The notes under the pieces: model-generated
Databases searched by the model: none
What the model was told of the DNA's origin: nothing
What the model saw: the letters and a program-made list of their open reading frames with translations, nothing else
Made by a program: the position numbers and the translations under genes
In this document: positions 56,102 to 59,532 of the stretch, piece by piece
How the letters are laid out: the number at the start of each line of letters is the position of its first letter
Position numbering within the stretch: the stretch's first letter is position 1
Assembly: GCA_025517425.1 (NCBI GenBank)
Contig: JAOPJY010000001.1
Span: 1,598,217-1,662,216, forward strand
Length of the DNA stretch: 64,000 bases
Source: Halobacteria archaeon AArc-dxtr1
GTDB taxonomy: Archaea; Halobacteriota; Halobacteria; Halobacteriales; Natrialbaceae
Direction: 5' to 3'

Positions 56102-57721
56102 ATGACCGGAGACGAGTCACTCGAGGAGTCCGGGGAACTGCAGACCGACGGTGGCGCCGCTGGAGCCGACAGCGAGGGATCGAAGATCCCTCGTGCAGAC
56201 GGCGGAGCCGTCGACGACGTCGCGTTAGACCCCTGGGGCTCCGCGGCCGTCTCCGACTACCGGAAGCTCTTCGAGGAGTTCGGCATCGAGGAGTTCGACG
56301 AGCTGCTCCCGGACGTGCCGAACCCCCACTACCTGATGCGTCGGGGCGTCATCTTCGGCCATCGAGACTACGGACCGGTCGCAGAGGCGATGCGAGAGGG
56401 CGAAGACGCGGCCGTCCTCTCGGGGTTCATGCCGACCGGTGATCCACACATCGGTCACAAGCTGGTGTTCGACGAGATCATCTGGCACCAGCAACAGGGG
56501 GCAGACGCCTACGCCCTGATCGCCGACTTAGAGGCCAACGCGGCCCGCGGGATGAGCTGGGAGGAGATCGACGAGCACGCCCGCAGCTACCTGCTCTCCT
56601 TGCTCGCGCTGGGATTCGATCCCGAGGAGGGGACACTCTACCGCCAGTCCGAAAACCGCGAGGTGCAAGACCTGGCGTTCGAGCTCGGTGCCGAGGCCAA
56701 CTTCTCCGAATTCCAGGCGATCTACGGCTTCGACGGCGAGACGGACGTCTCGCACATGCAGTCGGTCGTGACGCAGATGGCAGACATCCTCTACCCGCAA
56801 CTCGAGGAGCCAAAGCCGACGGTGATTCCGGTCGGTCCGGATCAGGACCCCCACGTGCGACTGGCACGTGATCTGGCCGAGCGGATGCGCTTTTTCAAGG
56901 TGAGCGAGGCATACGCGAGTTTCGAGCTTGACGACGACGAACGGGACCTCGTCGCCGAGTACTACGAGCGGCTCGACCCTGCCGACTTCGACGACGACAC
57001 GCTCCGGTGTGTCCACGTCGCGCAGGTGCTCGAGGAGACACCCCTCGAAGAGCTTACCGTCCCCGCGGACACGCTCGGTTCGGTGCTGACGAAGCTGAAC
57101 GAAGCCGGAATGGAGCCGGTCCGCCCGCGAACGCGCTTTTTCGACCGGCGGGCCACCGACGAGGCGTTCGAGGCGCTCATCGACGCCGTCGAAGGCGAAA
57201 AGCGGGTGTACGAGAACCACGTGGATGCCTTCGACCTCGGTTCCGACGAGGCCGAAACGCTCGCCCGCGAGGTCGAAGTCGAAAACGGCGGCTACGGCTT
57301 CCAGCCGCCGTCGTCGATCTACCACCGGTTTATGACTGGCCTCACCGGCGGGAAGATGTCCTCGTCGATTCCCGCAAGTCACATCTCCCTGCTCGACGAT
57401 CCCGAGGAGGGCTACGAGAAGGTGAAGTCGGCGACGACGGGCGGGCGAGAGACCGCGGAGGAACAGCGCGAACTCGGCGGCCGGGCCGACGAGTGTCCGG
57501 TCTACGAGCTGTACGCCTACCTACTGGCCGGCGACGACGACGAGTTCGCGAAACTCGTCTACGACGAGTGCGTCGGCGGCGAGCGCCTCTGTGGCGACTG
57601 CAAGGAGCAGGCCGCCGAGTTGATGAGAGAGTTCCTCGCAGAGCACCAGGAGAAGCGCGAGGACGTAGCAGAGTTGCTGGAGGCGGCGGATATCGAACTC
57701 GAGTCGTCCCGACGTCGGTAA
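56102..57721 (+). CDS. trpS: tryptophan--tRNA ligase
   Basis: A 539-residue class I archaeal TrpRS. GDPHIGHK is the HIGH motif (near residue 113) and GGKMSSSIP the KMSKS motif (near 420). An acidic N-terminal extension (about 1-45) precedes the core. VIPVGPDQDPHVRLARDLAER is the conserved dimer/active-site helix region. The start at ATG 56102 follows a pyrimidine-poor leader. It is co-directional with endA, 87 bp away. Confidence 0.96.
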   Translation: MTGDESLEESGELQTDGGAAGADSEGSKIPRADGGAVDDVALDPWGSAAVSDYRKLFEEFGIEEFDELLPDVPNPHYLMRRGVIFGHRDYGPVAEAMREGEDAAVLSGFMPTGDPHIGHKLVFDEIIWHQQQGADAYALIADLEANAARGMSWEEIDEHARSYLLSLLALGFDPEEGTLYRQSENREVQDLAFELGAEANFSEFQAIYGFDGETDVSHMQSVVTQMADILYPQLEEPKPTVIPVGPDQDPHVRLARDLAERMRFFKVSEAYASFELDDDERDLVAEYYERLDPADFDDDTLRCVHVAQVLEETPLEELTVPADTLGSVLTKLNEAGMEPVRPRTRFFDRRATDEAFEALIDAVEGEKRVYENHVDAFDLGSDEAETLAREVEVENGGYGFQPPSSIYHRFMTGLTGGKMSSSIPASHISLLDDPEEGYEKVKSATTGGRETAEEQRELGGRADECPVYELYAYLLAGDDDEFAKLVYDECVGGERLCGDCKEQAAELMREFLAEHQEKREDVAELLEAADIELESSRRR

Positions 57722-57799
57722 TCGCCAGGCGACAGGAAGGCCCAAACGCTCCGACATTCGGGCGTAACGTTTTTGCTCGCCCGCTTCGAGGCTCTCGCC

Positions 57800-57880
57800 A
57801 TGGTATCCGAGCCCGATCACCGGTGTGTCGTCCGCGACCGCAAGCCGCGCCCGGGGCTCGGCTTTTTTACCGCTCGCTGA
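57800..57880 (+). CDS. possible 26-aa leader peptide ahead of pheS
   Basis: An ATG at 57800 opens a 26-codon frame ending MVSEPD...PGLGFFTAR. Two adjacent Phe codons lie four codons before the stop, and the stop is followed at once by the structured leader before pheS. The same layout as bacterial pheST attenuators is suggestive; no archaeal precedent is known to me. It may be chance. Confidence 0.3.
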   Translation: MVSEPDHRCVVRDRKPRPGLGFFTAR

Positions 57881-57881
57881 C

Positions 57882-57942
57882 CGGACCGTGGACTCGGGGG
57901 CGTCCCGCCGGACGCCCGCGGCGAAACGGTCCGCTGCGAGTC
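57882..57942 (+). ncRNA. structured pheST leader RNA with competing helices
   Basis: CGGACCGT (57882-57889) pairs with ACGGTCCG (57926-57933) and encloses a perfect hairpin GGGCGTCC-CGCC-GGACGCCC (57898-57917). GACTCG (57891-57896), inside the outer stem, can pair with CGAGTC (57937-57942), outside it, so the two long-range helices compete or form a pseudoknot. No tRNA shape fits. The pheS start is 43 bp further on. Confidence 0.5.
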
Positions 57943-57984
57943 GGAACCGCTAACTGACCGACCTACGGCAATCAACATAAGCGA

Positions 57985-59532
57985 ATGCAACTTCCCGAAG
58001 CACAGGCCGCGGTCGTCGAGGCCGCGAGCGCGGACGAGGCACAGTCAGTCGACGCCCTCGCCGCGGCGACAGACCTTCCCCCAGAGACCGTCACCGGCGC
58101 GGTGTTCGCGCTCGAAGCGGAGGGGCTGCTCGCCGTCGCAGAGCGCGTCGAGGAGACGATCGAACTCACCGAAGAGGGACACGAGTACGCCGCCGACGAG
58201 CTGCCAGAGGTGCGGCTCTATCGGGCCGCGCTCGAGGCCGGCGCTGCCGACGGCTCGGCCCCGATGGGCCAGGTTATCGGTGCCTCCGGACTCGAAGGCG
58301 CAGGCGTCGACATCGCCCTCTCGAACTACGCCCGGAAGGGGTACGGGGCGATCGAGAGCGGCGAGATCACCGCCGATCCGGACGCCGATCCGGCGGCGGA
58401 CCCCGAGGCGACAGCGCTGGCCGCGCTCGCCGAGGCAAGCGAAGCGTCGGCCGATGCGGAAGGCGGGAGCGTCGACGGCGCCGATATCGACGAGGAGACG
58501 CTCTCTCAGCTCGATCGGCGCGGACTCGTCGAGCGACCCGAGACGACGATCCGAGAGGCGACGCTCACCGAGCGCGGCGTCACCGAGCTGATGGCCGGCA
58601 TCGAGACGAGCGAGGCGATCGGCCAGATCACCCCCGAGCTGCTCACGAGCGGGGAGTGGCAGGACGCCGAGTTCGCGGAGTACAACGTCGAGGCCGACGC
58701 CGAGCGCGTCGACGGCGGTCGGGTCCACGTGCTCCGGCGGACGGCCGAGCGGGTCAAAGACGTACTCGTCGGCATGGGCTTCCAGGAGATGGACGGCCCC
58801 CACGTCGACGCCGACTTCTGGATCAACGACTGCCTGTTCATGCCCCAGGACCACCCGGCTCGGACCCACTGGGACCGGTTCGCCCTCGAGAATCCGACCC
58901 ACGTCGACCACCTGCCGGCGGATCTCGTCGACGCCGTCGAGCGCGCCCACCGCGAGGGCGTCGGCGAGGACGGCGAGGGCTACCGCTCGCCGTGGGACGA
59001 GGACTTCGCGCGGGCGCTCGCGCTTCGCGGGCACACGACGTCGCTGTCGGCCCGTCACCTGGCGGGGGTCGCGAGGGGCGACCTCGAACCGCCACAGCGC
59101 TTCTTCAGCGTCGAGAAGGCCTACCGGAACGATACGCTGGACGCGACCCACCTGCTCGAGTTCTACCAGATCGAGGGCTGGGTGATGGCCGAGGATCTCT
59201 CGGTGCGGGATCTGATGGGCACCTTCGAGGAGTTCTACGCCCAGTTCGGGATCACGGACATCGAGTTCAAACCCCACTACAACCCCTACACGGAGCCCAG
59301 TTTCGAGCTGTTCGGCACCCATCCGACGACCGGCGAGTTGATCGAGATCGGCAACTCCGGGATCTTCCGCCCAGAGATGCTCGAACCGCTCGGGGTCGAC
59401 TGCGACGTGATGGCCTGGGGGCTCGCACTCGAGCGCCTCGCGATGCTCGTGACCGGCGCGGAAGACATCCGCGACCTCCACGGGACGCTCGCAGACCTCG
59501 AGTTCCTGCGGAACGCCGAGGTGACCTACTGA
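57985..59532 (+). CDS. pheS: phenylalanine--tRNA ligase alpha subunit
   Basis: A 515-residue archaeal PheRS alpha chain. Residues 1 to about 210 are winged-helix modules (LPPETVTGAVFALEAEGLLAVAERVEETIELTEEG). The catalytic part has HTTSLSARHL, YRNDTLDATHLLEFYQIEGW and FELFG, and ends with GIFRPEMLEP and GLALERLAMLV (motif 3). It charges tRNA-Phe together with PheT. Its TGA overlaps the pheT ATG (TGATG). Confidence 0.96.
   Translation: MQLPEAQAAVVEAASADEAQSVDALAAATDLPPETVTGAVFALEAEGLLAVAERVEETIELTEEGHEYAADELPEVRLYRAALEAGAADGSAPMGQVIGASGLEGAGVDIALSNYARKGYGAIESGEITADPDADPAADPEATALAALAEASEASADAEGGSVDGADIDEETLSQLDRRGLVERPETTIREATLTERGVTELMAGIETSEAIGQITPELLTSGEWQDAEFAEYNVEADAERVDGGRVHVLRRTAERVKDVLVGMGFQEMDGPHVDADFWINDCLFMPQDHPARTHWDRFALENPTHVDHLPADLVDAVERAHREGVGEDGEGYRSPWDEDFARALALRGHTTSLSARHLAGVARGDLEPPQRFFSVEKAYRNDTLDATHLLEFYQIEGWVMAEDLSVRDLMGTFEEFYAQFGITDIEFKPHYNPYTEPSFELFGTHPTTGELIEIGNSGIFRPEMLEPLGVDCDVMAWGLALERLAMLVTGAEDIRDLHGTLADLEFLRNAEVTY

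Follow-up and report, generated by a model that had tools for sequence, protein, structure and literature searches.

A conserved Phe-codon leader peptide and its RNA structure upstream of pheST in Halobacteria: a putative archaeal attenuation-type leader

T-box leaders regulate aminoacyl-tRNA synthetase genes by tRNA charging, which they do through direct tRNA binding and with no leader peptide. Streptomyces possesses a ribosome-mediated Trp attenuator, in which a leader with Trp codons lies upstream of an auxiliary trpS gene. In E. coli, the accessible text of two accounts of pheM-pheST describes a Phe-rich leader peptide upstream of pheST, as at the locus reported here, together with overlapping stem-loops and tRNA-Phe-dependent control (PMC4082710, PMC5371410); this bacterial system employs a terminator hairpin with alternative structures, according to the accessible part of the latter account (PMC5371410). 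In archaea, no transcription attenuation or antitermination was known as of 2021 (PMC8448881), and a literature search, whose coverage did not extend to most subscription papers and preprints, found neither a later account of such control nor any description of an archaeal leader with Phe or Trp codons. Both support the view, put forward in a preliminary description of this DNA, that a Phe leader switch would be novel for archaea.

The pheST locus was examined within a 64,000-nucleotide stretch of haloarchaeal DNA, which in its full length is referred to here as the window (Table 1). Its PheS has its closest named relatives in Natrialbaceae. Between trpS and pheS lies a short ORF ending in a pair of Phe codons, which are the sole U-rich tract from the leader promoter to pheS. 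Over its two strands, the window has 140 ORFs that begin with ATG and span 18-34 codons, and the leader ORF alone combines at least two Phe codons among its last ten codons with a TATA-like box at a leaderless distance. Its own cluster has only two Phe codons, a point against the reading as an attenuation-type leader. The trpS gene of the window has no Trp leader, and the Trp-leader covariance model introduced below (R2) has no match in the whole genome. In 82 of the 85 distinct leaders, a T[TA]3+ run is found at -36 to -16 relative to the ATG, and the median centre of the T-rich box is -27.5 from the ATG (10-90 percentiles, -28 to -26.5). Since a centre near -27.5 is the spacing expected for a leaderless archaeal transcript, the Phe leader probably has its own promoter and its transcript is probably leaderless.

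Table 1. Coordinates of the features of the pheST locus, as positions of the window.
Feature	Start	End	Strand	Sequence	Remarks
trpS	56102	57721	+		Upstream neighbour; own leaderless-type promoter
Putative leader promoter	57764	57774	+	GTAACG + TTTTT	BRE/TATA-like, by sequence; 26-30 nt 5' of leader ATG
Leader peptide ORF	57800	57880	+	MVSEPDHRCVVRDRKPRPGLGFFTAR-stop	26 codons
P0, 5' arm	57807	57814	+	CCGAGCCC	Leader codons 3-5; pairs with 57854-57861
P0, 3' arm	57854	57861	+	GGGCTCGG	One base 5' of Phe codons
Control codons (Phe-Phe)	57863	57868	+	TTT TTT	
P1, outer 5' strand	57882	57889	+	CGGACCGT	Directly after stop codon; pairs with 57926-57933; double changes
P1, interior	57890	57925	+		GGA 57890-57892 opposite GAA 57923-57925, around variable hairpin 57898-57905/57910-57917
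Crossing helix of the preliminary description	57891	57942	+	GACTCG/CGAGTC	57891-57896/57937-57942; present, unconserved
P1, outer 3' strand	57926	57933	+	ACGGTCCG	Conserved with double changes
P2 element	57944	57959	+	GAACCGCTAACTGACC	41 nt 5' of pheS ATG; candidate pheS-proximal promoter
pheS	57985	59532	+		Phenylalanine--tRNA ligase alpha subunit; NCBIfam PRK04172.1, E 7e-179
pheT	59529	61241	+		Phenylalanine--tRNA ligase beta subunit; NCBIfam pheT_arch, E 3e-131

For comparison, we assembled 110 pheS loci, of which 106 are distinct. An ORF rule identified a Phe-ending leader at 85 of the distinct loci, and either this rule or a covariance model built from 71 leaders (R1) identified one at 93, which leaves 13 of the 106 without a leader. 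The consensus of the encoded peptides is MA(S/P)E(S/P)H...GFGFFFA(R)-stop. It should be mentioned that some of the eight loci recognized by the model only are degenerate: L068, from a metagenome-assembled genome, is out of frame and L062 lacks a start codon where the model places it; the two keep the leader RNA and may reflect assembly error or decay. In a search of 292 Halobacteria genomes from 77 genera, model R1 matched 236 genomes in 68 genera, mostly with a single match per genome, and pheS adjoined the match at all 30 of the best-scoring loci. In a 246-genome sample of the phylum, 33 genomes matched, all 33 of them from the order of the window, and there was no match outside this order. 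A short ORF near and upstream of the operon that it would control, as is typical of attenuators, is therefore present at 93 of 106 loci and 30 of the 30 best matches. The preliminary description had drawn a 26-codon frame with Phe-Phe near its stop and the pheS start further 3', and had asked for conservation of this ORF upstream of pheS in relatives; the frame is there as drawn, and the distribution just given bears out its conservation. On this comparison, the ORF of the window belongs to a leader peptide family that is widespread in Halobacteria.

Model R1 is blind to reading frames, and we examined 70 of its matches further (the 30 best and 40 chosen lower down), 55 of which had a coding sequence outside the training set. 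In all 55, the reading frame that begins at the model start runs uninterrupted until a stop within the match and has at least three Phe codons among its last ten, which constitutes the cluster of cognate control codons expected of an attenuator. Across 85 distinct leaders, the last ten codons contain a mean of 3.59 Phe, whereas the codons before them, 1425 in total, contain only 5 Phe altogether. These leaders use TTC for Phe more often than TTT (235 TTC and 70 TTT; 77% TTC); therefore, it is the codons that seem to be under selection, rather than a U-run as such. Within the last 12 codons, 35 of 88 leaders have no T-run longer than three, and 83 of 88 have at least six T within an 8-nt stretch. 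A codon comparison of the leaders showed no visible amino-acid constraint on the peptide outside the Phe run. We also considered a functional micropeptide and rejected it, as the real frame was hardly better than the others when synonymous and non-synonymous single changes were compared (380/608, 370/655, and 304/779). The retention of Phe at the end of an otherwise unconstrained peptide fits a control-codon leader and not a functional peptide.

The leader RNA contains two helical elements conserved with compensatory changes. P0, which joins leader codons 3-6 to the bases directly before the Phe codons, is the best-conserved helix and lies inside the ORF; it had been overlooked in the preliminary description. 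P1 follows the ORF. Both were evaluated in an alignment (A1) of 71 of the 81 prepared sequences, 10 having been omitted by eye as near-duplicates or for odd lengths, after the exclusion of L022, L043, L085, and L088; the tree-aware test left out L029 as well, where the pheS match is split. P0 was 96.0% paired with double changes in the 71 sequences and 98.1% paired in the 70 model matches, while the inner helix of P1 was 91.5% paired in the 71-leader alignment with double changes at all 4 pairs. Taken together, P0 and P1 were paired in 90.3% of cells in this sequence-only alignment, with 188 double-changed cells versus 54.1 for shuffled and 25-42 for slid partners. The repeat with the 70 model matches gave 187 versus 65.9, on a model-fitted alignment that leans towards structure. 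RNAalifold recovered both elements unprompted from the 71-leader alignment, so a compensatory-change-supported RNA structure overlapping the leader, another mark of attenuators, is present. In the tree-aware test, one inner P1 pair alone reached significance on its own (E about 0); the remaining P0 and P1 pairs ranked near the top with E above 1, and most of the next-ranked pairs, apart from those of overlapping columns, belong to P0 or P1. Single-sequence folding of the region modestly outperformed shuffles (z -1.85). The distance from the stop codon to the GGA of P1 is 4-15 nt across 85 loci, with a median of 10. The GGA/GAA internal loop is nearly invariant while the helices on either side covary, and this purine-rich loop (YGGA/GAAA) resembles a protein or tertiary contact site. 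A kink-turn and a bulge-helix-bulge were both rejected for it, as their geometry, judged by eye, does not fit.

We found no conserved pair of mutually exclusive structures in the Phe leader, which would be expected of a classical attenuator. Eight element-versus-element searches for a helix competing with P0 or P1 all remained at the shuffled level. The preliminary description had placed a 6-bp helix across the outer stem to make an exclusive switch; this crossing helix occurs in the window, but across 84 loci it averages 3.33 of 6 pairs versus 3.49 for shuffled partners, with all six pairs in 3 loci, and it was rejected as a conserved element. The covariation that the preliminary description had proposed to seek in its three helices was thus observed for the outer stem and the inner hairpin of P1 and not for the crossing helix. 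Its outer 8-bp stem right after the ORF is real, being the outer stem of P1, and covaries across the class; its perfect 8-bp inner hairpin is present and is variable in relatives. From the Phe-responsive switch that it envisaged, the Phe-codon leader and a conserved RNA structure stand, whereas the switch as drawn falls with the unconserved crossing helix and the lack of a competitor. A bacterial-type intrinsic terminator, consisting of a hairpin and U-run, was absent between the leader ORF and pheS in 85 loci, as was any T-run longer than three between P1 and pheS. An Rfam scan of positions 57650-58050 returned a sole match, to mir-6790 (E 3.9), which is attributable to chance, and identified no T-box, riboswitch, or amino-acid leader.

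A second leader precedes trpS genes. In many haloarchaea, a diverged trpS paralogue has its own small ORF with the consensus MTSAL.WRWH.PSRADSV....DAA and a helix that surrounds its Trp codons. Trained on 16 such leaders, a second covariance model (R2) matched 112 of 292 Halobacteria genomes and 42 of 77 genera. Examination of 50 matches yielded 40 new coding sequences, 36 of which were followed by trpS; all 36 of these leaders contain at least one Trp codon and 33 contain at least two. The 1:2 helix of the Trp leader was paired in 99.2% of cells, with 36 double-changed cells versus 9.5 shuffled. The 2:3 helix, in which region 3 is a U/C-rich tract after the stop codon, was paired in 95.0% of cells (49-63% for slid controls), with 18 double-changed cells versus 6.3. 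At least 8 of the 9 pairs of 2:3 were present in 44 of 45 sequences versus 29% in shuffles, a count for which one sequence was skipped and L267, L268, L278, and L280 were left out. A weaker control, in which the majority and variant forms of region 2 were exchanged, had little effect, so the claim of covariation for 2:3 rests on the double-change test. Two mutually exclusive helices, as expected of an attenuator, are therefore found in the Trp leader, and this RNA, with region 2 predicted to pair with either region 1 or region 3, is a true exclusive switch. Trp leaders were noted in L141-L160, L231-L266, L269-L277, L279, and L341-L345, with some unclear cases (e.g. L142 and L155). In L261-L264, a Trp leader precedes the main-type trpS, ~2 kb upstream of the Phe leader. 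The same architecture without Trp codons precedes GNAT acetyltransferase-like genes in L267, L268, and L278, an identity that comes from Pfam for L268 and L278 and merely from leader similarity to L268 for L267; these GNAT-associated leaders are possibly a drug-sensing variant. In L280, a Trp-leader-like element precedes a gene whose product has an ABC transporter membrane domain. Among other synthetases, we found no His-rich leader ORF before hisS (15 loci of 16 matches; L289 was poorly placed) and no Cys-rich leader ORF before cysS (15 of 16).

Both leaders appear to have been mapped in Haloferax volcanii. Table 2 of a transcription start site (TSS) map lists, in the accessible text of that paper, a 26-aa uORF before pheS (HVO_2948) and a 23-aa uORF before a trpS (HVO_A0127), each in a mapped 150-250 nt 5' UTR and neither with a further TSS indicated at the gene that follows (PMC4983044). 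The same accessible text does not treat Phe or Trp codon content, conservation, or structure, and contains neither 'attenuat' nor 'leader peptide' (PMC4983044). In the genus to which a Haloferax larsenii locus in our comparison belongs, the Phe leader is usually 26 aa long, and six of these 26-aa leaders share a pI of 5.94; a length of 23 aa was found for two Trp leaders. As far as the accessible text allows, the H. volcanii uORFs are very likely members of the Phe and Trp leader families; the identity falls short of proven because the masses printed there, 2772 (pheS) and 2743 (trpS), match no leader exactly (26-aa Phe leaders, 2792-2850; Trp leaders, 2671 and 2625) (PMC4983044).

From these results, we assign a probability of roughly 78% to ribosome-mediated control of an attenuation type, in which the Phe leader of Halobacteria would sense charged tRNA-Phe and adjust pheST accordingly. 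Cognate sensing of charged tRNA is favored because two unrelated leaders each carry codons for the amino acid of the synthetase that follows, Phe ahead of PheRS and Trp ahead of TrpRS. The sensor, in which the ribosome would stall on the Phe codons whenever charged tRNA-Phe is short, is well supported by the sequence. A ribosome covers ~15 nt ahead of its P site. From this footprint and the geometry of the leader, plentiful Phe-tRNA should bring the ribosome to the stop codon, where it would cover the 5' strand of P1, and P0 could close behind it with the U-rich Phe tract left bare. With scarce Phe-tRNA, a ribosome stalled on the Phe codons would cover the 3' arm of P0 together with the U-rich tract, P1 would be free to fold, and expression of pheST would be expected to rise. 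We suggest, at slightly less than an even chance, that stalling lets transcription evade a premature, aCPSF1/FttA-dependent termination that would otherwise occur at the U-rich tract when it lies exposed. Shielding of the Phe tract is favored because, if transcription is attenuated, this tract is the sole U-rich site and because aCPSF1, which has a role in archaeal termination, binds U-tracts, according to the accessible text of PMC8716108. The Trp leader would follow the same logic, as its region 2 can hide the U/C-rich tract.

Alternative outputs, acting on pheS translation or mRNA stability, are serious rivals to termination. The same Phe-codon sensor could have a purely post-transcriptional effect upon pheS translation or the stability of the long mRNA, with no premature termination at all, and we consider this quite conceivable, if well short of probable. 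It is in keeping with P1 and pheS having neither a U-run nor another conserved terminator between them, and the 5' arm of P0 begins at nucleotide 8 of the leaderless mRNA in both Phe and Trp leaders, from where it could gate re-initiation. Furthermore, the minus-strand locus L022 keeps P0 and the Phe codons with neither P1 nor P2, and its stop codon lies just 37 nt before pheS, which makes it a naturally reduced form of value for work on the mechanism. However, no conserved pairing that masks the pheS start was found, and in the Trp leader the alternative helix is formed with a downstream tract whose U/C-richness would suit a termination signal. P1 might instead be a binding site for PheRS or another protein, serving as an autoregulatory RNA element to which the Phe codons are secondary. 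The nearly invariant loop between covarying helices is what such a site might look like, but the frame and Phe codons were kept in 55 of 55 new matches, the Trp leader has Trp codons without such a P1, and L022 dispenses with P1 altogether, which together render this explanation improbable.

Near pheS, we identified a further conserved element, P2. Its motif GAACCGYTAACTGA was present with 0-2 mismatches in 72 of 110 loci, whereas none of 550 shuffles fell below 3 mismatches, and it is retained where the leader is missing (e.g. L016, L026, L040, L069, and L081). Because P2 resembles the leaderless-type promoters upstream of cysS, it is probably a second, pheS-proximal promoter, from which many species may start additional pheS transcripts 3' of position 57942. 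If so, the leader would control just part of pheST transcription in such species. In the accessible text on E. coli, pheST is similarly transcribed from a native promoter subject to attenuation, and an alternate promoter has been proposed ~45 bp before pheS (PMC4082710). The persistence of P2 without the leader would also agree with the leader being an independent small gene or transcribed relic that does not interact with a pheST unit driven by P2, and independent small genes are indeed offered by Babski et al. as an alternative for such uORFs in the accessible text (PMC4983044). This is nevertheless very improbable, given the absence of amino-acid constraint except in the Phe run, the adjoining pheS in 30 of the 30 best matches, the presence of a Trp leader before trpS, and the lack of a second TSS at pheS (HVO_2948) in the accessible H. 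volcanii table (PMC4983044). Finally, P0 and TTTTTT could be read as an intrinsic terminator of trpS with the Phe codons as a by-product of the U-run, as the window has, 3' of trpS, an 8-bp GC stem and then T6, but this is scarcely credible in view of the leader's own promoter, the preference for TTC and the leaders without T-runs above three described above, and the fact that trpS ends within 300 nt of pheS in just 4 of the 80 named loci (L001-L030 left out), yet the leader is class-wide.

Returning to the Phe-codon sensor with a termination output, we can speculatively extend it to both families: Halobacteria would possess leader-peptide attenuation on leaderless mRNAs without terminator hairpins, in which a U-rich tract is either shielded by a stalled ribosome (Phe) or sequestered by RNA (Trp) from aCPSF1/FttA-dependent termination. 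This general scheme is rather unlikely as it stands. If true, it would be the first archaeal switch to link translation to factor-dependent transcription termination, and it would have evolved independently for two synthetases and possibly been reused with other codons before drug-resistance-type genes. The two leaders constitute natural, class-wide systems with compensatory changes, and as Haloferax is genetically tractable, the idea that archaeal ribosomes control gene expression through stalling on leader codons becomes directly testable. They also provide a candidate function for two mapped H. volcanii uORFs that are left uninterpreted in the accessible text of PMC4983044.

By description, the haloarchaeal Trp leader is like the Streptomyces trpS attenuator in having Trp codons before an auxiliary trpS, although the latter operates with the bacterial transcription machinery. 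For the Phe leader, E. coli pheM-pheST is, by analogy, the functionally closest system. The haloarchaeal leader differs in its archaeal promoter, its probably leaderless transcript, and its lack of a post-ORF terminator and of a conserved exclusive pair of structures, and the two have no sequence relation. Because it is without a post-ORF terminator and exclusive helices, we do not place the Phe leader within the E. coli pheM-pheST type. Overall, leader-peptide attenuation is a kind of regulation known from bacteria, and the haloarchaeal leaders suggest that it now appears in a domain where it was unknown.
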